From a virus, in the IMG/VR virus record IMGVR_UViG_3300049846_001113, positions 1-33,931 of that record: a stretch of 33,931 nucleotides of DNA; one strand, given 5' to 3'. The position numbers and the translations under genes were made by a program. The notes under the pieces are model-generated. The model made no database searches, had not been told where the DNA came from, and saw only the letters and a list, made by a program, of their open reading frames with translations. Position 1 is the first letter of the stretch, and each line of letters opens with the position of its first letter. Positions 4,610 to 32,672 of this stretch are shown in pieces.

Positions 4610-5611
4610 ATGGTAAAGGAATGGACGAAACAGGAAACAGAAAAAGCGTTATCAATGTACCATAGCGGAATGTCGTATGCTGACATAGCGGAAGCACTAG
4701 GTAGGACGTACAACAGCGTAACAATCCGAATCAGCAGGGCGAAAATAGACGGGCGTATAAAAAGCACTCAGTTACCGCCGTCCCGTATGCCATTGATTGA
4801 TAAGCCGCTACGGTCTGAAGGCGACGCGGTTATACTGACGGATGTAGAAGCACCGTTCCAACACAGCGAATTTATCAACCGCGTTCTTGACCTTGCGGAC
4901 GCCTGGGGCGTGCAAGATATACACATGGCGGGCGATCTATTGCATTACGACAACCTGAGTAAATGGGGCAGTGAGTGGACAGAGGACAAGGAAAGTATGG
5001 CTGATGCAATCCTTGAAATCATGGACATGGTAAAGACCAAAGAACGCGAAAAGGCGCGGGCGTTACTGGAGGCGCGGGGAATATTGCAAGACGGCGGTTT
5101 GTCTGATGAGCTAGACGAGGCGCGTAAGGTATTCGCGTCCATTAGTTCATTCAAGAATGTTTACGTGGCATTGGGCAATCACGATGATAGATACCTGAGG
5201 GCAATTGATAAGGCTCTTTCCCCTAGTGAGCTATTGCACCAGCTAGACAGGCATAACGATAAACGATGGAAGATTGCCCCGTATTATTACTCCATCATAG
5301 ACACAGAACAGGGGCCATTTAGAGCGGAGCATCCACGCGGAAGCGGCAAGAACGCCGCCGTTGATCTGGCTATTCAGTATCATTGTCATATCATCATGGG
5401 CCATTCGCACAGATGGGCCGTCAATCGAGACCCATCCGGCAAGTATTGGGCAATCCAGACGGGGCACTGTGTTGACGAAATGCGGCTGAAGTACGTACAG
5501 CAACGGAGCGCGAAACGTGACGCGCATGTATTGGGAGCGACCATTGTACGCGGCGGGTTTCCGTTCGTCTTGTGTCCCGAAACTCCGTGGGACATTATGA
5601 AAAGGATGTAG
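4610..5611 (+). CDS. HTH-metallophosphoesterase fusion
   Basis: A 333-aa protein. Residues 4-45 (WTKQETEKAL...YADIAEALGRTYNSVTIRI) form a helix-turn-helix of the Myb/GcrA-like type. Residues 73-330 are a calcineurin-like phosphoesterase with GD at 108-109, GNHD at 189-192, an H at 258/260 and GHSH at 264-267. The first metal motif, normally DxH, reads DVE (78-80). A charged helical insertion (about 120-180) lies between the GD and GNHD motifs. It sits inside the head operon between the minor capsid and scaffold genes. Predicted activity is a metal-dependent phosphodiesterase or phosphatase; the substrate is unknown. It might act on nucleic acid, given the DNA-binding-like N-terminus. Confidence 0.85.
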   Translation: MVKEWTKQETEKALSMYHSGMSYADIAEALGRTYNSVTIRISRAKIDGRIKSTQLPPSRMPLIDKPLRSEGDAVILTDVEAPFQHSEFINRVLDLADAWGVQDIHMAGDLLHYDNLSKWGSEWTEDKESMADAILEIMDMVKTKEREKARALLEARGILQDGGLSDELDEARKVFASISSFKNVYVALGNHDDRYLRAIDKALSPSELLHQLDRHNDKRWKIAPYYYSIIDTEQGPFRAEHPRGSGKNAAVDLAIQYHCHIIMGHSHRWAVNRDPSGKYWAIQTGHCVDEMRLKYVQQRSAKRDAHVLGATIVRGGFPFVLCPETPWDIMKRM

Positions 5612-5616
5612 TGGGT

Positions 5617-5778
5617 ATGCCGTGCGGTAAATTGTTCTTTCTGGCAATGAAGAAACAGCGGGCGCGGCGGCCTGAGGCGATACGGGAGGCGCGTCTAGCC
5701 ATGCGGCGGCATTTGCAGGAGTGCCAGTATTGCAAGCGACAGGCACGCAGGATATACGGTAAAAAAGCCGTCACTTGA
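5617..5778 (+). CDS. Small ZAS-like zinc-finger protein
   Basis: A 53-aa basic protein containing HLQECQYCKR, an H-x3-C-x2-C pattern like the zinc centre of anti-sigma (zf-HC2) domains, plus an N-terminal MPCGK cysteine. It starts right after the phosphoesterase. A GTG at 5611 overlaps that stop (TAGTG) and is an alternative start that adds two residues. An anti-sigma role is a guess from four residues; it may simply be a small nucleic-acid binder. The final codons lie within the dyad at 5767-5782. Confidence 0.6.
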   Translation: MPCGKLFFLAMKKQRARRPEAIREARLAMRRHLQECQYCKRQARRIYGKKAVT

Positions 5779-5782
5779 CGGC
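5767..5782. terminator. Dyad, possible minus-strand terminator
   Basis: GCCGTCA-CT-TGACGGC forms a perfect hairpin (6-7 bp) preceded by six A residues on the plus strand. It therefore reads as a hairpin plus U6 terminator on the minus strand. No minus-strand gene is visible upstream of it, so its role is uncertain. It also overlaps the TTGACG of the promoter-like element that follows. Confidence 0.4.
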
Positions 5783-5798
5783 GAAACGGGATTATAAT
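5775..5798 (+). promoter_or_regulatory. Promoter-like element, AAACGG-N3-TATAAT family
   Basis: TTGACGGCGAAACGG, 3 bp, then TATAAT at 5793-5798. The same AAACGG-N3-TATAAT core recurs at 6155-6166 and 27273-27286. TTGACG is only 12 bp from the -10 box, too close for a normal sigma-70 -35. Either the AAACGG is the functional upstream element (activator or phage-specific), or the -35 is dispensable. Transcription would start at about 5805, next to the ATG at 5806, giving a leaderless or nearly leaderless mRNA. Confidence 0.6.
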
Positions 5799-5805
5799 TA
5801 ATTCA

Positions 5806-6096
5806 ATGGATGTAAAGCTATCTATAAATCCCCTTGGTGAAACATGGACGCCGGGCAACATTCCCGTTAAGCCTGGCTGGTACTCAGTATCTTGCGCTGT
5901 TTCAGACAAATCGAACAAGGGTATATTTCCCGGCGCGTCTTATTGGAACGGTGAAACGTGGGATTGTACGTCTGATAATGTAATTGCGTTTTTTGGGTCA
6001 TTTGAAAGCAAAAAAGACGCAGAAAATTGGGCAGCGAATCACGACATTGGTATTCATACAATGGATGATTGGTGGCTATGTCCTGATTGGATGTAA
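5806..6096 (+). CDS. Hypothetical Trp-rich protein
   Basis: A 96-aa acidic protein I do not recognise. It has an unusual number of tryptophans (for example VKPGWYSVS, YWNGETWDC and a DDWWLCPDWM C-terminus). It is a small soluble globular candidate without membrane segments. It is the last gene before the RNA module at 6161-6271 and appears to have its own promoter with almost no 5' leader. Its base composition is more AT-rich than the flanking head genes, suggesting a moron-like insertion between the two halves of the head operon. Confidence 0.65.
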   Translation: MDVKLSINPLGETWTPGNIPVKPGWYSVSCAVSDKSNKGIFPGASYWNGETWDCTSDNVIAFFGSFESKKDAENWAANHDIGIHTMDDWWLCPDWM

Positions 6097-6151: not shown

Positions 6152-6166
6152 AAACGGTAGTATAAT
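6152..6166 (+). promoter_or_regulatory. Late-type promoter P-A (AAACGG-N3-TATAAT)
   Basis: GAAACGGTAGTATAAT with TATAAT at 6161-6166. It shares a 15-base identical core (AAACGGTAGTATAAT) with the promoter at 27272-27286. A TTGACG at 6143-6148 is only 12 bp upstream and is absent from the other late copy, so it is probably not the deciding element. The expected start is near 6173, just before the structured RNA and the capsid/tail operon. Confidence 0.65.
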
Positions 6167-6172
6167 CTCACT

Positions 6173-6271
6173 AACAACTTATACCGCTTGTGGATGAGCC
6201 ACGGCGGGACATGCTACTAGAAATCTAGCGGCTTTCGCAATCTCAAAAGGATTGCGGGAGCCGCTTTTTTT
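6173..6271 (+). ncRNA. Structured RNA module, copy A (upstream of capsid/tail operon)
   Basis: Three elements follow promoter P-A. P1 is a 9-bp hairpin with one bulged pyrimidine (arms 6184-6193 and 6199-6207, loop ATGAG). An invariant core, TAGAAATCTAGCGGCTT at 6218-6234, can form a small hairpin (GCTA 6213-6216 with TAGC 6226-6229). A 15-bp hairpin (6228-6242 with 6250-6264) is followed by seven T (6265-6271). Copy B at 27293-27390 aligns without gaps from TATAAT to the last hairpin, and P1 is kept by compensatory changes. It ends 85 bp before the scaffold gene. It is either a terminator-containing leader (attenuation/antitermination) or a stand-alone small RNA of about 100 nt. I know no named family matching it. 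Confidence 0.8.
6228..6271 (+). terminator. Intrinsic terminator of RNA module A
   Basis: A 15-bp stem (with two U-G pairs), 7-nt loop TCAAAAG and a U7 tract give a strong factor-independent terminator. Unless read through, it would separate promoter P-A from the capsid/tail genes. Its first two stem bases (6228-6229) are shared with the small upstream hairpin, so the two structures compete at the base. Confidence 0.8.
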
Positions 6272-6356
6272 ATTTCGTTATCCGCCAAACGTACAAGGGG
6301 CGGGCGTCATGTGAACCGACCACATACAAAAGGGTAGACGCGAAAAGGAAACAGGT

Positions 6357-6908
6357 ATGAAACGCGAAGATCTAAAGGCTCTTGGAATCGCAGACGAAGC
6401 CATTGACTCCATCATGGCCTTGCATGGCAAGGACATCGAAGCGCACAAAACGAAGCTAACCACCATGCAGGCGGACCTTGACGCGGTAAACAAACAACTT
6501 GCTGAAGCCGGGTCTACTATTGAAGGTTTCAAAAAGATGGACGTGGAAGCGATCCGGGCCGCCGCTGATGACTATAAGGCCAAGTACGAGAAGTCACAGC
6601 AGGAAGCCGCGGCCCAGGTAGCCGCCCTGAAGTTCGATTACGCCCTCGATGGGGCGTTATCAGGCGCAAAAGCCAAGAACACGAAGGCAGTACGGGCGCT
6701 GATGGATACCACGGCCATGAAACTGAAAGAAGATGGTACGTTGGACGGCTTTCAGCAGCAGCTTGAACAGATCCGCAAAGATAACGAATACCTGTTTGCA
6801 GACGCACAGCCTGCCCCGCGTATCGTGGCAGGTGCTACCAACACCCGAGTAACAGGCGATCCGATTGTGGACAGCGCACGCGCCGCCGCTGGATTGCCCG
6901 TAAAGTAA
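6357..6908 (+). CDS. Scaffold protein (phage Gp20-like)
   Basis: A 183-aa capsid assembly scaffold. It starts MKREDLKALGIADEAIDSIMALHGKDI, typical of the Gp20 minor structural family. A long coiled coil follows (about residues 30-85). Then come the conserved FDYALDGALSGAKAKNTKAVRALMD segment and a C-terminal region ending in short disordered sequence, as scaffolds use to bind the capsid protein. It is followed directly by the major capsid gene. An AAGGAAACAGGT Shine-Dalgarno region supports the ATG. It is the first gene after RNA module A. Confidence 0.92.
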   Translation: MKREDLKALGIADEAIDSIMALHGKDIEAHKTKLTTMQADLDAVNKQLAEAGSTIEGFKKMDVEAIRAAADDYKAKYEKSQQEAAAQVAALKFDYALDGALSGAKAKNTKAVRALMDTTAMKLKEDGTLDGFQQQLEQIRKDNEYLFADAQPAPRIVAGATNTRVTGDPIVDSARAAAGLPVK

Positions 6909-8515: not shown

Positions 8516-8911
8516 ATGTCGTATGCAGATTTCACCTTTTACAGTACCGCATATCTTGGCAACCTCATAGCGGAGGCGGATTTTCCCCGCCTGATGGTAG
8601 CCGCCTCTCAGTTTATTGATAACGTCACATTCGAGCGGGCGGCTACCGATACCACCAATACCGACAAGATCAAGCGGGCGGCTTGTGCCGTGGCTGAAGA
8701 GCTATACAGGCAGGAACAGGCGGGCGGCGCTGATGGAGTTGTTAGCGAGTCACAGGGACAGTATTCCGTCTCCTACGGTAACAACTCCTCACGCGCCAAA
8801 AGCAACCAGTCGAAACTTGAGAACGCGGCCCGGTTCTGGCTGGGCAATACGTACCTGATGTTTGCCGGTTTCAACTCTGGCGAGTATGGCGGCGTGTACG
8901 ATGATCCCTAA
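8516..8911 (+). CDS. Head-tail connector (adaptor) protein
   Basis: A 131-aa largely alpha-helical protein. The N-terminal half (SYADFTFYSTAYLG, FPRLMVAASQFIDNVTF, IKRAACAVAEELYRQEQ) matches the helical-bundle head-completion adaptors that bind the portal ring. A loop region and a C-terminal helix ending near residue 115 follow. Its location, first of a run of connector genes with overlapping starts and stops, supports the role. Confidence 0.85.
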   Translation: MSYADFTFYSTAYLGNLIAEADFPRLMVAASQFIDNVTFERAATDTTNTDKIKRAACAVAEELYRQEQAGGADGVVSESQGQYSVSYGNNSSRAKSNQSKLENAARFWLGNTYLMFAGFNSGEYGGVYDDP

Positions 8912-9296
8912 CGCGGTAATCACGCTGTACAACCGATACATTCTGAGCCGTGAGGAGAAATACCAACGGTCTGAATTATCCGGGGTTGTGTGGCAGTCAC
9001 AGAAAGCCATAAGCCGCCGCAAAGAACAAGTACCGGCCAATACCGCTCTTGTCCTGATTCCCTTCGTTGTGGGTAATCAGTATGTCACCCCCAAGAACTT
9101 TATAGCAGGTCAAGGAACATGGACCCTGCAAGAGGGTGACATTATCGTAAGAGGCATAGCGACGGAAAGCCTAAGCGGATCCTTTACCGTGGCAGACCTG
9201 CAAGCCAGATACGACGATGTTGTAATGATTACCTCCGTAGACGCAATGGACCAAGGCTCTATCAGTTCCCGGCATTGGGAGGTTGGCTGTAAATGA
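8901..9296 (+). CDS. DUF6751-like head-tail stopper/minor capsid protein
   Basis: A 131-aa protein. The start is taken at ATG 8901 (MIPNAVITLYNRY), overlapping the previous gene by 11 bp. The start motif I-x-NAVITLYN, the central SGVVWQSQKA strand and a closing domain with GDIIVRG, VMITSVD and WEVGCK resemble the minor capsid/stopper proteins that follow the adaptor in Firmicutes siphophages. The upstream in-frame ATG at 8862 is less likely because it would bury 50 bp in the preceding gene. Confidence 0.8.
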   Translation: MIPNAVITLYNRYILSREEKYQRSELSGVVWQSQKAISRRKEQVPANTALVLIPFVVGNQYVTPKNFIAGQGTWTLQEGDIIVRGIATESLSGSFTVADLQARYDDVVMITSVDAMDQGSISSRHWEVGCK

Positions 9297-11690: not shown

Positions 11691-13257
11691 TGGCAGTATC
11701 ATTATTGATACCAAAATAGACGAAGGCGGCGTAAATAAAGGCGTGCGTGGTATCACGCGGGCCTTTGGCGGTATCCTGTCGTCTGTCAAGGGCATTGGCA
11801 AGGCAATGGCGGGCGCGTTGCTGGGTGGCGCTGTAATCAATGCCGTTCAAAACATTGCCCAGAACATTATCGGCTCGTTTGACCTGATGAACTCCTCCAT
11901 TGGCGGGAGTATCGCAGCCATGAACGACTCGTTTAGTATGCTCTCGGGTGCGTTTATCAACCTGATTGCTACTGCCCTGGCCCCGCTTATTCCGTACATC
12001 ATTACGGTAATCCAATGGCTTACGACCCTGTTTACAACCGTGACGCAGATCATAGCGGCTTTGTTCGGTATGAAAACCACGGTTGGAGGCATTGCCAAGA
12101 CAGCGGCGGGCGGCGCGGGCGCGGCTAAAAAGGCGGCGAAGGACGCACAGGGGGCGCTGGCTTCTTTCGACCAGATCAACGTATTGCAGAAAAAGCAGGA
12201 AGATTCAGACGCGGGCGGCGGGGGTGGCGCGGGCGGCGGGATCTCCTCACCCCCGGCCATGCAAGTCTCTGAGGACATCTTGAAAAAAGTACAGGCGTTC
12301 AAGGACTTGCTTGTGAAATTCTGGAATGACCCGATTGGCACCATTCAAGAGGCATGGGGTAAGTTTGCGGAGTGGTTCCGTACCACGGTTATAGAGCGGG
12401 TGGTTTCATGGTTGCGCGGCTCATGGGCTGGAAACCTGTTTCTTGACCTGCTGAATAATGCCGTATCTACCTGGAAACAGATTTACGACAATACCGTAAC
12501 GTCATTGTCAAATATCAAGGGCTACGCGGAACAGGTCTTGGGCGGTATCCGTGATTTTATAACGGGTATCTTTACCGGCGATTGGGGTAAGGCTTGGCAG
12601 GGCTTGGTAGATATTGTGTTCGGAATATTCAATATCCTACTGACTTTCATCACTGGCACGTTTACCAATATCGCCCTATTCGTTGGGGGCTGGGCCGAAC
12701 AGATCCGCCTGATTGTGGGAGCGCTGGTTACGTGGTTCGTGACGAACTTTGGAGACCGTATCCGACTGGCGTTCAATACTACGCTTGACTTCCTGTATGC
12801 TAAATTCGCCGCCGTGTTCGGTGGTATTCAGGGCATTGTCAAGAGCGCGATCAACGGCATTATTGACGGGATCAATCGAATGTTATCCGGCGTTGCTACT
12901 GGCTTGAATACCATTATCCGGGGCGCTAACGTTGTCAACTCCTTCATTCCCGGTGGCTCTCAGATCGGATACATATCCGCACCACAGATACCCCGCCTGG
13001 CTACGGGCGCGGTGATTCCGCCTAACTCTGAATTTATGGCGATCCTGGGAGACCAACGAAGCGGGCGGAACATCGAAGCGCCTGAAGGTCTCATTCGGCA
13101 GATCATTAGCGAAGAGATGGGCAAGATTCAGGCAGATATACAGATCGGCTTTAGTGGTTCTATGGCCGGGCTGGTGCGTGAATTGAAGCCATACATAGAC
13201 CGGGAAAGCGTGCGGGTTGGTGGCAGTCTCTTGAAGGGAGGCGCGGCGGCTGTATGA
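11680..13257 (+). CDS. Tape measure protein
   Basis: A 525-aa tail length ruler. It has a Gly/Ala-rich start (GGVNKGVRGITRAFGG), a hydrophobic helical stretch (about 40-150) and the ALASFDQINVLQ motif (about 160-172) seen in many Gram-positive phage tape measures. A Gly-rich linker follows, then long amphipathic helices with three hydrophobic segments, and a C-terminal part with the SFIPGGSQIGYISAPQIPRLATGAVI motif. It is short for the family, so the tail should be short (roughly 75-80 nm at 1.5 angstrom per residue, a general rule). No peptidase or lysozyme domain is seen. Confidence 0.9.
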   Translation: MAADGSIIIDTKIDEGGVNKGVRGITRAFGGILSSVKGIGKAMAGALLGGAVINAVQNIAQNIIGSFDLMNSSIGGSIAAMNDSFSMLSGAFINLIATALAPLIPYIITVIQWLTTLFTTVTQIIAALFGMKTTVGGIAKTAAGGAGAAKKAAKDAQGALASFDQINVLQKKQEDSDAGGGGGAGGGISSPPAMQVSEDILKKVQAFKDLLVKFWNDPIGTIQEAWGKFAEWFRTTVIERVVSWLRGSWAGNLFLDLLNNAVSTWKQIYDNTVTSLSNIKGYAEQVLGGIRDFITGIFTGDWGKAWQGLVDIVFGIFNILLTFITGTFTNIALFVGGWAEQIRLIVGALVTWFVTNFGDRIRLAFNTTLDFLYAKFAAVFGGIQGIVKSAINGIIDGINRMLSGVATGLNTIIRGANVVNSFIPGGSQIGYISAPQIPRLATGAVIPPNSEFMAILGDQRSGRNIEAPEGLIRQIISEEMGKIQADIQIGFSGSMAGLVRELKPYIDRESVRVGGSLLKGGAAAV

Positions 13258-17392: not shown

Positions 17393-17436
17393 CCGTGGTA
17401 TGTGGTGAACTCTCCAAACTCATACACTAACCACGG
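17393..17436. other. Imperfect 44-bp dyad, candidate attP
   Basis: CCGTGGT (17393-17399) and ACCACGG (17430-17436) form the outer 7-bp arms. Weaker matches lie inside (GTG..TG against the complement of CATACAC). It spans the 36-bp gap between the convergent fibre and serine recombinase genes and enters the recombinase 3' end by 10 bp. Attachment sites of serine integrases are about 40-50 bp imperfect dyads, commonly next to the integrase gene. There is no U-tract on either side, so a terminator is less likely. Confidence 0.4.
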
Positions 17437-18869
17437 AAAATGACTTTCATCTCCAAATCTGGACTAATGGAGATATGGCACAGGCGGAGGAGCAAGCGGT
17501 TTACAATGCGCGGCTCCTCCGCTTGCATCCATTCGGGCAAGTAGGCCAGTAAAGCGCGGGCCTGTTCCAGTGTAACGCTAAACTGCTTACGGATCGTATC
17601 ACGGCGGAGCCTTTCAGCTTCGCCGTTTTTATATGCATGTATCCGCTTGTCTATCTCCCTGATTTTCCCCTCTGCCTCCTCCAGTGTGTACAGTTCGGAC
17701 TCATACGCGGCTTGCACCCGCCGCCGCTGTTTCTCCAATTCGGGCGTAGGATCGGGCGCGGGTTCGGTCTGCATGGGCGCTCCGGGCTGTACGTCATGCA
17801 GGGCTTTTTGCAACAGGCGCGGGGCCAGGGCAGATAAATGCTCGTGACGAATTAGCACATGATACTTACCGGGGCAATGCCACACAGGGACCGCGTAAGA
17901 GGGGTCATGTATCAGGCTTTTATTGCAGACCGTACAGCGTACAAGCCCGCTATATGGGTAGCGGTTCTGCTTGGGTGCGGACTTGCGGCGCTTGACCTCC
18001 TCCAAAATCGCCTGGTGCTCCTCCCATGTGACAATCGCCTTATGCCTGCCGTCCATAAGCAGGTAGTTATCATTTTGCACGCGGCGGGAGGTGTTGTTGT
18101 GCGGATCGTTGATCACCTTCCAACGCTGAAAAAAGACCTTGCCCGCATAGAACGGATTTATCAGAATTTGGCGGATCGTGGTTATCTCCCACGGCTTCCC
18201 CGTAACGGTGCTTACGTGATTCTCTTTTAGCATGGTGGCGATGGCGTCATACGTTTCACCCGCTAGAAACATATCCACCATCTTACGCACATAGGCCGCC
18301 TGAGACGGGACCAACTCAGCGGGCGCTTGTTTCTGCCCTGGTGCGCTACGGTATCCAAACGGCACGCGAATCGAGTGCAAGCCCCGATTGACGCGGGATG
18401 TTACCCCATAGCGGAATTTGCGTTTTAGGTCGCTGATCTGCCAGCGGGAGATAATTTGAGACATGCCCCGCATGATGCTCTCAGAGTCGGATGCGTACGG
18501 GTTGTACTCCTCAGGCGGTAGCGGGTCTACCGGTTGGGATACGCTGTACAGCTGGACGCCGTAGGATGATAGTGTTTTGGCTACCGGGTCTAACAGATCG
18601 CGCAAGCGGTTGTAATCGTAGAGTACCAGCAGGTCATACCGGCCCCCTTTTGCATCGTCCAACATGCTGGCAAGCGCGGGGATCGCCCGCTCTGCGTCTC
18701 TGAGATTGACCCAGCGCGTTCTGGATTCCCCCGGAACCTGATACGTCAACCCGGTATCTTGCCAGCCCTTTGCAGTGGCTACAGCGCGGGATTTAGCCTC
18801 TTGCTCTGCAAGTGAGGCGTTATCGGTTTGTTTTTCGGTGGATACAGCGGCCCAAATGGAAAAGCGCAT
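17427..18869 (-). CDS. Large serine recombinase (integrase), atypical active site
   Basis: A 480-aa recombinase expected to join phage and host attachment sites. Resolvase-type N-terminal domain: WAAVSTEKQ with nucleophile S10, then LLVLYDYNRLRDLLDPVAKTL. Recombinase domain about 160-290 (YGVTSRVNRGLHSIRVPFGYR, INPFYAGKVFF). Zinc ribbon about 308-333 (C312, C315 and C332 visible). Coiled coil about 375-425. Two departures from the classical site: the Arg two residues before the Ser (R8 in gamma-delta resolvase) is Ala, and the R-x-x-R helix motif reads R-L-R. Its ATG directly follows the stop of the 55-aa gene, at the end of the repressor operon. Confidence 0.9.
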   Translation of the reverse strand: MRFSIWAAVSTEKQTDNASLAEQEAKSRAVATAKGWQDTGLTYQVPGESRTRWVNLRDAERAIPALASMLDDAKGGRYDLLVLYDYNRLRDLLDPVAKTLSSYGVQLYSVSQPVDPLPPEEYNPYASDSESIMRGMSQIISRWQISDLKRKFRYGVTSRVNRGLHSIRVPFGYRSAPGQKQAPAELVPSQAAYVRKMVDMFLAGETYDAIATMLKENHVSTVTGKPWEITTIRQILINPFYAGKVFFQRWKVINDPHNNTSRRVQNDNYLLMDGRHKAIVTWEEHQAILEEVKRRKSAPKQNRYPYSGLVRCTVCNKSLIHDPSYAVPVWHCPGKYHVLIRHEHLSALAPRLLQKALHDVQPGAPMQTEPAPDPTPELEKQRRRVQAAYESELYTLEEAEGKIREIDKRIHAYKNGEAERLRRDTIRKQFSVTLEQARALLAYLPEWMQAEEPRIVNRLLLRLCHISISPDLEMKVIFRG

Positions 18870-19037
18870 TTACAGCCAATGGTAGGTGGCGCGTTTGGTG
18901 CCTTGCACCCAATGCGCCGGGGTATAGAAAACGTTATGCGCGCGGCGGCGGAACTTGACCCACGCCACATATTGACGGATGGCCGGCAGATCGTTGGGGT
19001 GTGACTCTAAAAGGGCGGTTCTGATTTCGTTATTCAT
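18870..19037 (-). CDS. Small basic protein between repressor and recombinase
   Basis: A 55-aa basic protein. Its ATG overlaps the repressor stop (ATGA on the minus strand), and its TAA abuts the recombinase ATG, so all three are co-translated. The N-terminal part is helical (NNEIRTALLESH, LPAIRQYVAWVKFRRR) and the end is aromatic (NVFYTPAHWVQG, YHWL). I do not recognise it. A recombinase accessory or directionality role is possible from context but unsupported by sequence. Confidence 0.65.
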   Translation of the reverse strand: MNNEIRTALLESHPNDLPAIRQYVAWVKFRRRAHNVFYTPAHWVQGTKRATYHWL

Positions 19038-19387
19038 GGCTTTTTTCGTAGGTTCTTTTTCATGCGGATAAACGCTAGTACTTCCTCCCGGTCTTGCGGC
19101 GGGAGCTTTTCGACTTCGTGAATTATGCGCTCGATTTCTTCGTCCACGTCTATAGCGGGCGGGAGTAATCCGGCGGCGCGGTAGACCTCTTCAGGTGGGA
19201 GTTTTAGGGCTTTAGCTATTCCGTTGGCAAGGTCCACGCCTGGCCCGCGTGTGCCTTTTAGTACCCCATTGATAGCGGATCGTGTAACACCGGAGCGCCG
19301 GGCCAGCTCGGACTGACTGAGGCCTTGTTGAACCATGACATTCTCTAGCCATTCTGCAAATGACGGGGCGTAAACCATAGCGTACAT
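19034..19387 (-). CDS. CI-like Xre repressor
   Basis: A 117-aa protein. The start is the ATG at 19387 (MYAMVYAPSF), which has AGGAG about 10 nt upstream; the longer TTG start lies inside the operator. Residues 11-72 are a HTH_3/Xre domain (FAEWLENVMVQQGLSQSELARRSGVTRSAINGVLKGTRGPGVDLANGIAKAL). The tail (LPPEEVYRAAGLL, EEIERIIHEVEKLPPQDREEVLAFIRMKK) is the short helical end typical of small phage repressors. It lacks the S24 autocleavage domain, so induction would need another route. It heads the leftward lysogeny operon and faces the Cro-like gene across a shared operator region. Confidence 0.88.
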   Translation of the reverse strand: MYAMVYAPSFAEWLENVMVQQGLSQSELARRSGVTRSAINGVLKGTRGPGVDLANGIAKALKLPPEEVYRAAGLLPPAIDVDEEIERIIHEVEKLPPQDREEVLAFIRMKKNLRKKP

Positions 19388-19412
19388 TTTGCATTTACTC
19401 CTGTATTCTGTG

Positions 19413-19429
19413 GCGTACAAATTGTATCT
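19413..19429 (-). promoter_or_regulatory. Leftward (repressor) promoter -10 inside operator O1
   Basis: TACAA-A-TTGTA (19416-19426) is a palindrome. On the minus strand TACAAT (19426-19421) is a good -10 box for the repressor, with a poor TTCGGA 17 bp upstream as -35. The half-site GCGTACAA recurs at the other operators. Binding here would block the repressor's own promoter. Confidence 0.6.
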
Positions 19430-26637: not shown

Positions 26638-26892
26638 ATGAAAGTAATTTGTCCTATTTGTGAAAGAGTAATTGGCGCATATATCCCGAAAGGGGGTGAT
26701 GGTTCTGCCTATCGCCCGCGCCGTCATGGTGAATGTGAAGGTCGCTTTGAGTTGGTTGAGGAAATTTACGAAGAAGCGCACCTAACAAAGCGTGCAGCGG
26801 ACGTTTCGGCATGTCCGAGTTGCAAAGAAGTTGGTTTACGAATTGTTGATACTTGCGTTGGTTGTGGTTTCGATTACTCGAAACGCCGCTAA
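26638..26892 (+). CDS. Cassette ORF 2: double zinc-ribbon protein
   Basis: An 84-aa protein. CPIC near the start and HGEC form one Cys cluster; CPSC and CVGC form a second near the end. So probably two zinc ribbons, similar to small rubredoxin-like or transcription-linked ribbons. The stop codon falls inside boundary element 3, as gene stops often do within integron attC sites. There is no good Shine-Dalgarno before its ATG; element 2 lies directly upstream. Confidence 0.62.
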   Translation: MKVICPICERVIGAYIPKGGDGSAYRPRRHGECEGRFELVEEIYEEAHLTKRAADVSACPSCKEVGLRIVDTCVGCGFDYSKRR

Positions 26893-26910: not shown

Positions 26911-26944
26911 TTCCTTGCTTGCCGAGAAGAAAGGCAAAATAAAC

Positions 26945-27214
26945 ATGATTGAAAAATTCAAGAAAGCTACAAACGAAGAAGCAGGCGATAACTGGCTTAT
27001 TTGCTGGACAGGCTCGGATGATAAAGGAAATGGCTTCAATGTCACGACCGATTGCGTCCATGCTTCCGAGTTGCACGAGTACACACGCGGCGCAGAAGGT
27101 GATGCCGATCTCATCGCTCGTTTGCTGAATTGGTATTACTTTGATCCAGACGCCGCCGAACAATGCTTGCACATGGACGCGGGCTACGCCCTTTGCAACC
27201 GCCCGCGCCAGTAA
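26945..27214 (+). CDS. Cassette ORF 3: hypothetical acidic protein
   Basis: An 89-aa protein starting at ATG 26945 (MIEKFKKATNEEAGDNWLICWTG). The longer open frame from 26792 would overlap cassette ORF 2. A strand-helix pattern with many aromatic residues and three cysteines in the second half; no motif recognised. It lies after boundary element 3. No clear fourth element follows its stop. Confidence 0.6.
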   Translation: MIEKFKKATNEEAGDNWLICWTGSDDKGNGFNVTTDCVHASELHEYTRGAEGDADLIARLLNWYYFDPDAAEQCLHMDAGYALCNRPRQ

Positions 27215-27271: not shown

Positions 27272-27286
27272 AAACGGTAGTATAAT
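27272..27286 (+). promoter_or_regulatory. Late-type promoter P-B (AAACGG-N3-TATAAT)
   Basis: AAACGGTAGTATAAT with TATAAT at 27281-27286, identical over 15 bases to P-A. No TTGAC lies upstream. It drives RNA module B and, if the terminator is passed, the lysis/packaging block. Confidence 0.65.
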
Positions 27287-27292
27287 TATTGA

Positions 27293-27390
27293 GACAAATC
27301 ACACCAAACGCGGATAAACCGCTTTGGGATATGCTGTTAGAAATCTAGCGGCTTCTGTGCCTGGTAACGGGCGCGGGAGCCGCGTTTTTT
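27293..27390 (+). ncRNA. Structured RNA module, copy B (upstream of lysis/packaging operon)
   Basis: Homologue of module A, colinear without gaps for 88 nt from TATAAT to the end of the 5' arm of the final hairpin. P1: CCAAACGCGG (27304-27313), loop ATAAA, CCGCTTTGG (27319-27327); nine pairs with one bulged C. Five of the nine P1 pairs differ from copy A, and all remain pairable. The invariant TAGAAATCTAGCGGCTT is at 27338-27354. The 15-bp hairpin 27348-27362/27369-27383 is kept although its inner sequence differs. After one G there are six T (27385-27390). The holin-like gene starts 25 bp later. Same interpretation as copy A. Confidence 0.8.
27348..27390 (+). terminator. Intrinsic terminator of RNA module B
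   Basis: A 15-bp stem including several U-G pairs, loop GGTAAC, then G and U6. It would block transcription from P-B into the lysis genes unless relieved. Confidence 0.75.
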
Positions 27391-27415
27391 ATTTCACCAT
27401 ACAGGAGTAAATACA

Positions 27416-27757
27416 ATGCTTGAACTATCCCCGGAAATCCTTTTTGCCGTTGCCCTTGTCGCCTCTGTTGCGGTATGGGGTATCAAGCAGTACGCCAAGA
27501 CGGGCCGCCAGATCCCGGATGCTGTTTTGACATCCGGCGTCTATGTGGTTTCGGCGGTGCTGGCGTTATTTTTCTCGCCGGTGAGTTTGCCGCCGTTCCC
27601 TGCCTTTGTGGACCTGTTTACCTTTATCCCGGCGTTGATTGCCTGGGTAGGGGCGCTTTTGGTTCCGCTTTCAGCCTTTGCCGGTTTTGCTGGATTGATC
27701 TATCAAGCGTTATTGAAACGAATTTTGGACGGCATGGCCGCCCGTTTGCGTGGATAA
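27416..27757 (+). CDS. Holin-like membrane protein
   Basis: A 113-aa protein with three or four hydrophobic segments (about 5-24, 38-56, 65-84 and possibly 85-103) and a charged C-terminus (KRILDGMAARLRG). It lies just before the lysin with one gene between, in the first position of a lysis block, and has a strong AGGAG Shine-Dalgarno. Predicted to form the membrane lesion that releases or activates the endolysin. Holins are too diverse to name the family. Confidence 0.75.
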   Translation: MLELSPEILFAVALVASVAVWGIKQYAKTGRQIPDAVLTSGVYVVSAVLALFFSPVSLPPFPAFVDLFTFIPALIAWVGALLVPLSAFAGFAGLIYQALLKRILDGMAARLRG

Positions 27758-27763
27758 CACCCT

Positions 27764-28081
27764 ATGGACTCAGGCGTCATTATTGCCCTCATTACGGCAG
27801 GGGCCACCATTGCAGCAAGCCTGATAGCGTTTCACGCAGGGCGGGCGGGGCGTGTTGCCCAGAACGCGGATACCCTGATTGACCTACAGAACCAAACGCA
27901 GAAGTTTTCAAATGAGTTGATAGAAGTAAAGAAACAACTGGACAGTTTCAACCATAAAAACTCTGTGCTTTGGAAGTACGTTTACGCATTGGTCGAACAG
28001 CTTCGCACAAATGATATTGTGCCTGTCCCGCCGCCCTCTGAATTGGAAACAGACCCGAAACTGATTGCATTGATCCGTTAG
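27764..28081 (+). CDS. TM-anchored coiled-coil lysis accessory protein
   Basis: A 105-aa protein. One N-terminal membrane helix (about 4-24, GVIIALITAGATIAASLIAF). Then a long coiled coil (about 35-65, ADTLIDLQNQTQKFSNELIEVKKQLDSF), an aromatic helix and a Pro-rich end. It sits between holin and endolysin, like antiholins or haemolysin-XhlA-type lysis factors (XhlA has its TM at the other end). Its stop overlaps the lysin GTG start (TAGTG). Confidence 0.7.
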   Translation: MDSGVIIALITAGATIAASLIAFHAGRAGRVAQNADTLIDLQNQTQKFSNELIEVKKQLDSFNHKNSVLWKYVYALVEQLRTNDIVPVPPPSELETDPKLIALIR

Positions 28082-29844
28082 TGAAAAACATCCTTACATC
28101 CCCCCGGCTATATTGGCTATGGCGCATAGGCTGGTTAGAGCGTGCGTTCTTTTACGCTTGCCGGGCGCTGGATAGCGGGCGCGGAACAGCGCGGGCGTTT
28201 TTGGAACTGTGGCAGGGCTTTGATATATCCTATTATCAAGGCGCTGTAAACTTTGCCAAAATGCTGGCGTATGGGGCGCGGTTTCTGGTTTTGCGGGTGG
28301 TGTATGCTGCTAAAAAGGATGTGCGCTTTGAGGAGTACATAACGGCGGCCTTTGGCCTGTTACCGTTATCAGTATATTCTTTTTACGACCCAGCCGTAGC
28401 GCCACAAACTCAGGCTAATGCGGTAATCGACGCCCTGCAACCGCATAAGGGCAAGTTCCGGCGCGTGTGGCTGGATTTTGAATTTTGGTGGAGTGGCGCA
28501 TATAGTGACCCGAAGTGGTGGAAAGTCTACCGGGATACGATAGAAGCGGCGGGATATGCAACAGGAATATACACCCGTGCTACCTGGTGGGATTCGCGGG
28601 TAGGCATTTACGCGGCGGAGTTTGCGACCCGTCCATTATGGGCGGCGCAATACTCATCCGCCTTGACGTTGATCCCTAAAGGCTGGAAAGCGGCAATGAT
28701 ATGGCAGGACAGGGTACTAACCAACGGGCCACAGGTAGGGGTATCTTCGCCGGAATTAGATCACAACCTATGGAACGCTGACTTTGACTTTTCAGCCGAA
28801 TGGAACACAGCAGGCCCGGCAATAGTCATACCGAACGGCTACACACAGATCCGGCGCTTTAGTAGTGATGTCCATATCGTGAAAACAGCGACATTCACGC
28901 GGGCGCATGTGACCAACACGGGCGGCGCATTGCGTACCGTGTCCAGTGTGGCAGGCGGCGCGGCGTATGCGATCAACGTAGACGGATGGGATAAGAGCAA
29001 GCCCGCCCCGTTCGTTCCGTTGTCCGTGGCTTGTAGTGACGGGAACCTTTACCAACCCATACAGTTTGACTTTAGGCCGTTGTTCAACATTCGCCCAGAT
29101 GGTTGGATTGAAATAGGGCACTCAGGGTTTTCAGGTTCAGACCTGTACAACGCCGGAAGCGGTACGCGGTATTTGGTCAAGGCCGGGAATAACGCGTTTG
29201 ACGGCAGTACGGACCCGGAGCATATAACAGAGCGCAATCCCCGGAGCGCACTAGGGTACACGGCAAACAGAGCCTTGATTCTCATGGTGGTAGACGGGCG
29301 GAGCGCGTCAAGCGCCGGGGTAACGTTGCACGAATTGGCGGAACTGATGAAACAGGCGGGCGCTGAATGGGCGCTTGAACTGGACGGCGGCGGCTCTTCC
29401 GCGTTGTGGGTCAAGGACCGCATTGTAAACAGGCCCAGCGACCCAACCGGAGAGCGGGCGGTAGTCAATCATTTATTGATCTATGAGGCAAATATGGCAA
29501 ACGGAACAGCACGCGAAAAGCTAGGGAATACTTCAACCGTTCGGAGCCTGCCCACTCGTTACGGGGCAAAGCTGGGGAGCGTGAATCCATATACCACGGT
29601 TGAATTTACGGAGATCGTACCGGCCCAGATCGGCGGGACGGCAGACAACCCGGCAGACAAGTGGCTGAAACTGGCTAGTGGCGGGTATGTGAATTACATC
29701 TTGAACGGTGCGGAGTATTACACGGTCTTGACGCAACCGACCCCGGAAACCCCGCCCGCCGTGCCTGATGGGATTGAGGTCAAGATCACTGAGAACGGCG
29801 TAACCAAGACGTACAGGACAGACGGCAAGGTAGTGGTTTCCTAA
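28081..29844 (+). CDS. Endolysin: GH25 muramidase + NAGPA domain + SH3-like end
   Basis: A 587-aa protein starting at GTG 28081. Residues about 44-235 form a GH25 lysozyme domain: GFDIS (D48), VWLDFEF (D132, E134), IYTRATWW and DHNLWNADFDF. Residues about 290-470 are a phosphodiester glycosidase (NAGPA-like) domain: NRALILMVVDGRSASSAGVTLHELAELMKQAGAEWALELDGGGSSALW and ERAVVNHLLIY. Residues about 475-550 look like an SH3-type wall-binding part. GH25 cuts the MurNAc-GlcNAc bond; the NAGPA domain likely acts on a sugar phosphodiester, perhaps of the wall. No signal peptide is clear, so holin-dependent export is expected. Confidence 0.9.
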   Translation: MKNILTSPRLYWLWRIGWLERAFFYACRALDSGRGTARAFLELWQGFDISYYQGAVNFAKMLAYGARFLVLRVVYAAKKDVRFEEYITAAFGLLPLSVYSFYDPAVAPQTQANAVIDALQPHKGKFRRVWLDFEFWWSGAYSDPKWWKVYRDTIEAAGYATGIYTRATWWDSRVGIYAAEFATRPLWAAQYSSALTLIPKGWKAAMIWQDRVLTNGPQVGVSSPELDHNLWNADFDFSAEWNTAGPAIVIPNGYTQIRRFSSDVHIVKTATFTRAHVTNTGGALRTVSSVAGGAAYAINVDGWDKSKPAPFVPLSVACSDGNLYQPIQFDFRPLFNIRPDGWIEIGHSGFSGSDLYNAGSGTRYLVKAGNNAFDGSTDPEHITERNPRSALGYTANRALILMVVDGRSASSAGVTLHELAELMKQAGAEWALELDGGGSSALWVKDRIVNRPSDPTGERAVVNHLLIYEANMANGTAREKLGNTSTVRSLPTRYGAKLGSVNPYTTVEFTEIVPAQIGGTADNPADKWLKLASGGYVNYILNGAEYYTVLTQPTPETPPAVPDGIEVKITENGVTKTYRTDGKVVVS

Positions 29845-31052: not shown

Positions 31053-32672
31053 ATGAGTACAGCAGGAAAACGAGTATACGGCAGACCCTTTACAAAAAAC
31101 GACCCCACAACCGGAGAGCGTGACGAACGGATAAACCGGGCGGGAGCGCCTAAACGCGGGGCAAGCCTGGCCGAAGTACTCGCATGGGTAGACCGTCAAA
31201 ACGTAGAGGACATATTGCAACTAATCCCGGCAGGTAGCGACCTGGCACGCGATTACAAGAACATGCCTAAAGGTCTACCAATGAACCTGCTAAAAGTCTT
31301 GCGCCTAAACGCGGCGATCATGTTCGACCCTAACCCGGCCCTGGTGCGTGAGTTACACATGCGGACGGACGGCATAGTAACCAAGACGGACACGGGCGGA
31401 ACGATCAACGGGCTACGGATCGGAGGACGTGACGGGCGTTTTACCCTCCCGGCTGATGTACTTGCCCCGTCTTTTTTAGACGCTCATAGGGACATCGTAA
31501 ACGGCAGGCATACCGAATACATTCTAAGCGGCGGGCGCGGTAGTACGAAATCGTCATTTGTAAGCCTGGAATTGATTAGCCTGCTGATAAACAATCCGAA
31601 CATGCACGCCGTGGCAATGCGGCAAGTCAAGGACACGCTACGGGATTCGGTGTACTCGCAACTGGTATGGGCTATCTCGGAGCTAGGGTTATCGGATGAC
31701 TTCAACTGTACAACCAGCCCGCTAGAGATAGAGTACAAGGCAACCGGGCAAAAGGTCTATTTTCGCGGCGCTGATGACCCCGGCAAAATAAAGAGTATCA
31801 AGCCCGCGTTTGGGTATATCGGTATCCTGTGGTTTGAGGAGCTAGACCAATTCCACGGACCTGAGGCGGTGCGGAAGATAGAGCAATCCGTAATACGCGG
31901 CGGTGATGAGGCCAAAATATTCAAGACCTTCAACCCGCCCCCAACCGCTAACAATTGGGCCAATAAATATATACAGATACCGAAAGAATCGCAGTACCAG
32001 CATAGAAGCGATTACCGTACCGTACCGCCTGAGTGGTTAGGCAAAACGTTTATTGATGAGGCAGAGCATTTACAGCGCGTCAACCCAAAGGCGTACAACC
32101 ATGAGTATCTTGGAGAGGCAAACAGCGACGGCGGCGCGGTGTTCCCGAATCTCAAACTCAGAGCAATTACAGACGATGAGATAAAGGAATTTGACCGTGT
32201 ATTACATGGGCTTGACTGGGGCTTTTACCCAGACCCAGCGCATTACTCACGGGTTCACTACGATGCGGCGCGGCGCGTGCTGTACGTGTACGGCGAAAGC
32301 AGGCATTACAAGCTGTCCAATGAGCAACTATGGAACTCCTTACAGGAATACGGTTTGACTAAGAATGACCTGCTGATAGCAGACAGCGCGGAACCCAAGA
32401 GCGTGCAAGACTTCCGTGCGTATGGGTCAAACTGCCGGGGCGCGGAAAAGGGCAAGGAATCCGTCGCCTATTCCGTGAAATGGTTGCAGGGCTTGACGGA
32501 GATTGTTATAGACCCGGTGCGCTGTCCGTATAGCTCAAACGAGTTTCAAGATTACGAGTACGAACGCACGAAGGACGGCGAGATTATTAGCGCGTTACCG
32601 GACGCCAATAACCACGCGATTGACTCAGTACGATACGCCACTAACTTAATTTGGCGGCGCAAAGGCGAATAA
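31053..32672 (+). CDS. Terminase large subunit with fused N-terminal extension
   Basis: A 539-aa packaging motor. Walker A SGGRGSTKSS at 159-168, Walker B ILWFEELDQ at 258-266, and coupling motif-like KTFNPPP at about 291-297. The nuclease part has GLDWGF (D388), IADSAEPKS (D444) and HAIDSVRYA (D524), typical of the PBSX/Terminase_3 family. The first 150 residues are extra. They begin with a TGERDERINRAGAPKRG stretch and a helical section like small regulatory terminase domains. No separate small terminase gene was found next to it, so the N-terminus may supply that function. Confidence 0.92.
   Translation: MSTAGKRVYGRPFTKNDPTTGERDERINRAGAPKRGASLAEVLAWVDRQNVEDILQLIPAGSDLARDYKNMPKGLPMNLLKVLRLNAAIMFDPNPALVRELHMRTDGIVTKTDTGGTINGLRIGGRDGRFTLPADVLAPSFLDAHRDIVNGRHTEYILSGGRGSTKSSFVSLELISLLINNPNMHAVAMRQVKDTLRDSVYSQLVWAISELGLSDDFNCTTSPLEIEYKATGQKVYFRGADDPGKIKSIKPAFGYIGILWFEELDQFHGPEAVRKIEQSVIRGGDEAKIFKTFNPPPTANNWANKYIQIPKESQYQHRSDYRTVPPEWLGKTFIDEAEHLQRVNPKAYNHEYLGEANSDGGAVFPNLKLRAITDDEIKEFDRVLHGLDWGFYPDPAHYSRVHYDAARRVLYVYGESRHYKLSNEQLWNSLQEYGLTKNDLLIADSAEPKSVQDFRAYGSNCRGAEKGKESVAYSVKWLQGLTEIVIDPVRCPYSSNEFQDYEYERTKDGEIISALPDANNHAIDSVRYATNLIWRRKGE

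Follow-up and report, generated by a model that had tools for sequence, protein, structure and literature searches.

How phages outside the well-studied groups time the expression of their late genes is mostly unknown. The stretch of viral DNA analyzed here (the window; 33,931 nucleotides) bears on this question: two similar units, A and B, stand ahead of its late gene blocks, and each places a strong terminator just behind a putative promoter. What, then, do these units do? They look like a separate version of the late-gene antitermination switch of lambda, present in this phage and in dozens of uncultured relatives. With a signature at both late blocks and a small gene where lambda has Q, late antitermination becomes directly testable across a large set of uncultured phages, including some that reside in Anaerolineae genomes; annotation would gain one RNA family and one small-protein family.

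Two similar units precede the late gene blocks of a temperate-looking phage

The record is a 33.9-kb phage contig. Approximately 125 bp are repeated at both of its ends, so it is probably a complete genome that is circular or terminally redundant. The phage looks temperate, since it carries a serine integrase, a Cro/C1-type repressor, and replication genes. The late genes run from 27416 through the lysis genes and TerL (31053 to 32672) and across the join, beyond which they continue with portal, minor head, scaffold, capsid, and tail genes up to 17390. Unit B lies at the early/late junction, ahead of the lysis genes, and unit A lies ahead of the scaffold and capsid genes.

17427 to 18869, minus strand: serine integrase
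19034 to 19420, minus strand: Cro/C1-type repressor
27416 to 29844, plus strand: first late genes after B, two small ORFs (holin-like place) and a GH25 endolysin
6357 to 6908, plus strand: scaffold protein gene, the first after A (PF06810, 1.3e-43)

Most of the closest capsid relatives in named genomes lie in bins of Anaerolineae (73% Leptolinea, 69% Anaerolinea), from which we infer an Anaerolineae host. In the endolysin (28081 to 29844), GH25 is fused to a second domain, a phosphodiester glycosidase (NAGPA). Among the clustered head genes, positions 4610 to 5611 encode a protein that joins an HTH at its N terminus (sigma-70 region 4-like) to a metallophosphoesterase-like domain.

The original prediction had placed two copies at 6152 to 6271 (A) and 27272 to 27390 (B), with a 15-bp identical promoter core and the same distance from TATAAT to a GGGA. 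Both copies were found there; AAACGGTAGTATAAT is identical at 6152 and 27272, and the distance is 39 nt in each. Each unit consists of a promoter, a 9-bp hairpin (P1), GGGA, a small hairpin, and an intrinsic terminator.

6152 to 6166, plus strand: putative promoter core of unit A (AAACGGTAGTATAAT), same 15 bp in B
27272 to 27286, plus strand: putative promoter core of unit B, identical to A
6206 to 6209, plus strand: invariant GGGA of A, 39 nt after TATAAT
27326 to 27329, plus strand: invariant GGGA of B, 39 nt after TATAAT

Promoter B is without a good -35 hexamer. A third copy of AAACGGTAGTATAAT, with 2 mismatches, occurs at 5784; this promoter-like copy (5773 to 5798, CTTGACGGCGAAACGGGATTATAAT) lies upstream of ORF 5806-6096, has CTTGACGGCGAAACGG in common with promoter A, and has no terminator behind it. 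The sequence TAGAAATCTAGCGGCTT is present twice in the window, whereas chance alone would give 0.05 matches even if 3 mismatches were tolerated. A search for it in IMG/VR returned one match, inside a coding region of an unrelated contig, and a search with the promoter core plus GGGA returned no other match; the exact version found in the window is thus without a close relative among the sequences searched.

The leaders can form a hairpin that excludes the terminator

When the leaders of A and B were folded without the 3' arm of the terminator, both gave P1, a 5-nt linker, and a small hairpin of the form GCUNYUAG-AAAU-CUAGCGGC.

6184 to 6207, plus strand: P1 hairpin of A, 9 bp, bulged U (fold)
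27304 to 27327, plus strand: P1 hairpin of B, 9 bp, bulged C; compensatory changes at four pairs compared to A (fold)
6213 to 6232, plus strand: antiterminator-like hairpin of A, 7/8 bp (MFE of leader without terminator 3' arm)
27333 to 27352, plus strand: antiterminator-like hairpin of B, 8 bp (MFE of leader without terminator 3' arm)
6227 to 6272, plus strand: intrinsic terminator of A with U tract, -28.9 kcal/mol
27348 to 27391, plus strand: intrinsic terminator of B with U tract, -33.3 kcal/mol

In both units the 3' strand of the small hairpin is the beginning of the 5' arm of the terminator. The overlap had been put at two bases; it comprises about 5 to 6 nt of the terminator 5' arm, and the core hairpin is larger than had been claimed. 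Because these nucleotides are held in common, the small hairpin and the terminator are mutually exclusive. The predicted energies are -28.9 kcal/mol for the terminator versus -5.7 kcal/mol for the small hairpin in A and -33.3 versus -9.3 kcal/mol in B, so that termination would be expected by default. Each unit does end in a hairpin and a U tract, as described before, with a stem slightly longer (16 to 17 bp) than the 15 bp first given.

The P1 hairpins had been said to differ at five pairs, all still pairable. The differences are in fact four base pairs and the bulge; pairing is retained throughout, with four pairs changed on both sides. As evidence of selection on RNA structure, which the original prediction read from this covariation, the two copies in the window are suggestive, and the weight rests on the relatives. 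Antiterminator pairing in these two units by themselves did not significantly exceed that in shuffled leaders.

Many related phages carry equivalent units at both sites

We collected loci of relatives through the capsid gene (80 viral and 80 genome loci) and through TerL (80 loci). Upstream of the scaffold gene, many relatives have a promoter, a leader hairpin, and a terminator. An extended -10 promoter precedes 15 of 27 scaffold-linked terminators; the figure is 1 of 45 for other terminators and 0.8% for random positions. Long records have a second unit where the late operon begins; it usually precedes TerL by 0.5 to 3.7 kb, and in several records a holin-like gene comes directly after it. 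Some relatives have one unit only or no recognizable unit. Judged by sequence and position, A and B are the window's version of a lineage-wide pair, with one member opening the late operon and the other ahead of scaffold. The earlier suggestion of attenuation or antitermination acting on both late blocks gains from this recurrence in many related phages.

In the largest subfamily (type 1; alignment A1, 14 sequences), P1 is followed by a linker without pairing, GUGGGAC, and the terminator; both partners have changed in 16 of the 22 pairs. A model of it, R1, found four non-seed members with E values of 6e-10 to 2e-16, one of which lies on an Anaerolineales contig of 603 kb; a run of R1 over 396 genomes from the class returned its known member only. 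Run on A and B, R1 detected neither, and the two units are a divergent version of the architecture, outside the R1 sequence family.

The hairpin overlapping the terminator is itself conserved in two groups. Twenty units share a GG-A-(C..)-loop-(..G)-CC hairpin with a bulged purine, whose CC strand is the terminator arm; 49 of 49 inner cells were paired, compared to at most 46 in shuffles, in a test whose pairs were chosen by hand, favoring the structure. A second subfamily, beside the zinc-ribbon genes described below, has GCGG-UAUUUC.CCGGUUU-CCGC, and one phage has GUGG...CCAC. Across all 50 distinct units, antiterminator pairing was modestly higher than in shuffled leaders (mean percentile, 0.62; P = 0.005).

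Within a phage, the two units also resemble each other more than they do the units of other phages. Among the 12 phages with both units, own-pair similarity was 24.8, versus 15.7 in permuted pairs (P = 5e-5), and the result was the same without the window; the similarity is absent in 4 of the 12. In L253, for example, the pair reads GGACCGG-UCAA-CCGGCC and GGACUGG-UCAA-CCAGCC. The simplest reading is that a phage-specific partner is common to both sites, and gene conversion between the two sites would be compatible with this test as well.

A small gene often precedes the unit at the head of the late operon

In relatives, a small protein gene usually lies directly before the head-of-late unit. 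Its product often belongs to a zinc-ribbon family (CxxCG..IG ... CxxCG..F.W, then a helix) or is DUF2292-like, the latter with Pfam matches below cut-off and a structure model of moderate quality. A unit follows the zinc-ribbon gene in 17 of 17 distinct genes by eye and in 12 of 17 by a strict detector (background, 7.3%); five of the family's seeds were picked by position, so the 12 non-seed genes and a later set give the fairer test. In that later set, four further relatives found by sequence alone, a unit follows in three. AlphaFold predicted a confident β-rich fold with a C-terminal helix (pLDDT, 93.5) for the zinc-ribbon protein, and searches of solved structures and folds gave nothing significant; the family is new. 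A link between zinc-ribbon genes and a leader box, CAACTGAATA, was considered and is too loose to claim. In G005, a 42% relative of the window's 4610-to-5611 protein sits directly 3' of a zinc-ribbon gene.

Two ORFs precede B in the window.

26638 to 26892, plus strand: small zinc-ribbon-like ORF before B, a speculative candidate antiterminator (CPIC...CPSC...CVGC)
26942 to 27214, plus strand: last ORF before B, 90 aa from ATG (start in the ORF list, 26792, GTG); no family

The first of these has CPIC...IGAY...HGEC and further CxxC pairs. The zinc-ribbon HMM of the relatives did not detect it at E < 1, and naming it as the window's antiterminator is a guess. An all-against-all comparison of ORFs gave no conserved Q-like cluster; the common nonstructural clusters were integrases and a primase-like protein.

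The units resemble several known antitermination systems in part

The layout matches the lambda Q-pR'-tR' arrangement: where the early region ends, a small early gene is immediately succeeded by a late promoter, with a terminator right behind it. This placement was found in relatives, and in the window ORFs 26638 and 26942 precede B. The units differ from the lambda system in that there are two per phage, with a structured leader and a hairpin overlapping the terminator. Loading of Q requires a DNA element and a paused complex (PMC7171158). No antitermination family appeared among the Pfam matches of the early ORFs and small proteins scanned.

The two-hairpin antiterminators recognized by ANTAR proteins (EutV and others) likewise have a first hairpin followed by a second one embedded in the terminator stem (PMC8934654). 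Their targets carry two hexaloops with A1 and G4 (PMC8934654), whereas the loops of A and B are 5 and 4 nt long (AUGAG/AUAAA and AAAU). A search for ANTAR-domain proteins returned none in 18 genomes, with a control search that was silent everywhere. In RATs of the BglG/LicT type, a protein-bound hairpin overlaps and excludes the terminator. The hairpin of the units does the same, but the unit sequence is not RAT-like, and the CAT_RBD domain was found in 0 of 18 genomes (control positive in 4 genomes). The put RNA of HK022 also belongs to a phage leader and has two stems close to the promoter; it acts on polymerase for distant terminators via the β' zinc-binding domain (PMC9378689). On the tests made, the units appear lambda Q-pR'-tR'-like in place and ANTAR- or RAT-like in RNA design, without being members of these systems.

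A model for units A and B as attenuators of late transcription

We favor, with a probability of roughly 0.58, the reading that A and B are transcriptional attenuators of the late genes, regulated via the hairpin that overlaps the terminator and opened by a phage antiterminator. It builds on what is visible in the sequences: the parts and their places, the exclusive folds, the recurrence, the conserved pairing within subfamilies, the own-pair similarity, and the preceding small gene. It further supposes active promoters, read-through, and an action that is local rather than processive. RNA polymerase would start at the promoter and make a leader of roughly 100 nt, in which P1 would be the first to fold and the small hairpin the second. 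Unless the small hairpin were held, the stronger terminator would displace it and transcription would stop, so that late genes would stay silent in the lysogen and during early infection. A trans-acting factor specific to the phage, made late in early transcription, would bind the leader (P1, GGGA, and the small hairpin) and hold the antiterminator, and polymerase would enter the lysis-terminase block at B and the scaffold-capsid block at A. Since each terminator has its own antiterminator, transcripts from B could pass A too. In relatives, this factor would be the zinc-ribbon or DUF2292-like protein; in the window, it is perhaps the product of ORF 26638-26892. We tentatively extend the model to an undescribed class of switch, in which the final gene of the early operon would encode a small antiterminator, zinc-ribbon or DUF2292-like, that might bind a terminator-embedded hairpin at each late block, with RNA and protein diverging between phages while the two sites in each phage stay matched.

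Processive antitermination of the lambda Q or HK022 put kind is an unlikely alternative, in which a factor, or the RNA itself, modifies polymerase near the promoter, the terminator is the first of several to be ignored, and the overlapping hairpin is incidental. The placement matches Q-pR'-tR', put is likewise a two-stem leader RNA (PMC9378689), and many units that do not belong to the GG-A-C group have a weak overlapping hairpin. However, the overlapping hairpin is conserved with compensating changes in two subfamilies, and a processive system would have less need of a full copy ahead of a second terminator.

The position of both sites directly before late blocks in many phages argues against short, terminated, trans-acting RNAs for which the downstream genes are not targets. 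The original prediction had offered two such RNAs as its alternative, and a promoter and strong terminator of their own would indeed yield a defined short RNA, with which own-pair similarity would agree; however, the antiterminator overlap would then be without a role, and no common unpaired seed was seen across phages. We consider this improbable, and less likely than attenuation or antitermination. Equally improbable is an ordinary promoter with an early-operon terminator acting as an insulator, with constitutive partial read-through and no regulation. In its favor, the unit is missing in some relatives and the statistics for A and B alone are weak, but this reading leaves the covarying hairpins and the own-pair similarity unexplained, and a promoter just upstream of a strong terminator is conserved at both late blocks. 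A further reading, attenuation by ribosomes on a leader ORF of five codons (both copies have ATG-Leu-Leu-Glu-Ile-TAG, reaching the terminator arm, with two in-frame base differences that are both synonymous), was dropped as very improbable, since GGGA abuts the ATG and leaves no spaced ribosome site, the frame is absent from the relatives' leaders read (such as L071, L069, and G002 copy 2), and the same bases are explained by stem pairing.

Known RNA families in and near the units

No known family had come to mind for A and B, and a covariance-model search with Rfam 15 agreed, giving no gathering match in the window. At E ≤ 1, the only overlap with A is a miRNA match of 16 bits, attributable to chance, and B has none. 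One candidate adjoins unit A.

6276 to 6336, plus strand: GP20-b RNA candidate (RF03003), between the A terminator and the scaffold gene (27.3 bits; gathering, 36.2; E = 3.4e-4)

The candidate is below gathering, and at the equivalent place in L004 the match is above it. GP20-b is a cis-regulatory phage RNA, as unit A would be, ahead of the same scaffold gene; it differs in being a separate element past terminator A. Unit A itself gave no match to RF03003, the match lying downstream of the terminator, and the covariance search did not find GP20-b at B. GP20-b candidates also occur at the same place in L245 and L253.

Several relatives have a skipping-rope-like RNA with divergent transcription from just upstream of the scaffold unit; none was seen in the window. 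The skipping-rope RNA (RF02924) or a diverged relative lies at 11862 to 11941 (minus strand) in L253 and at 9084 to 9160 (minus strand) in L050, and similar sequences occur in L039, L052, L056, L059, L071, L241, and L255. L245 has a type II hammerhead ribozyme at 8832 to 8897 (minus strand; 45.7 bits).
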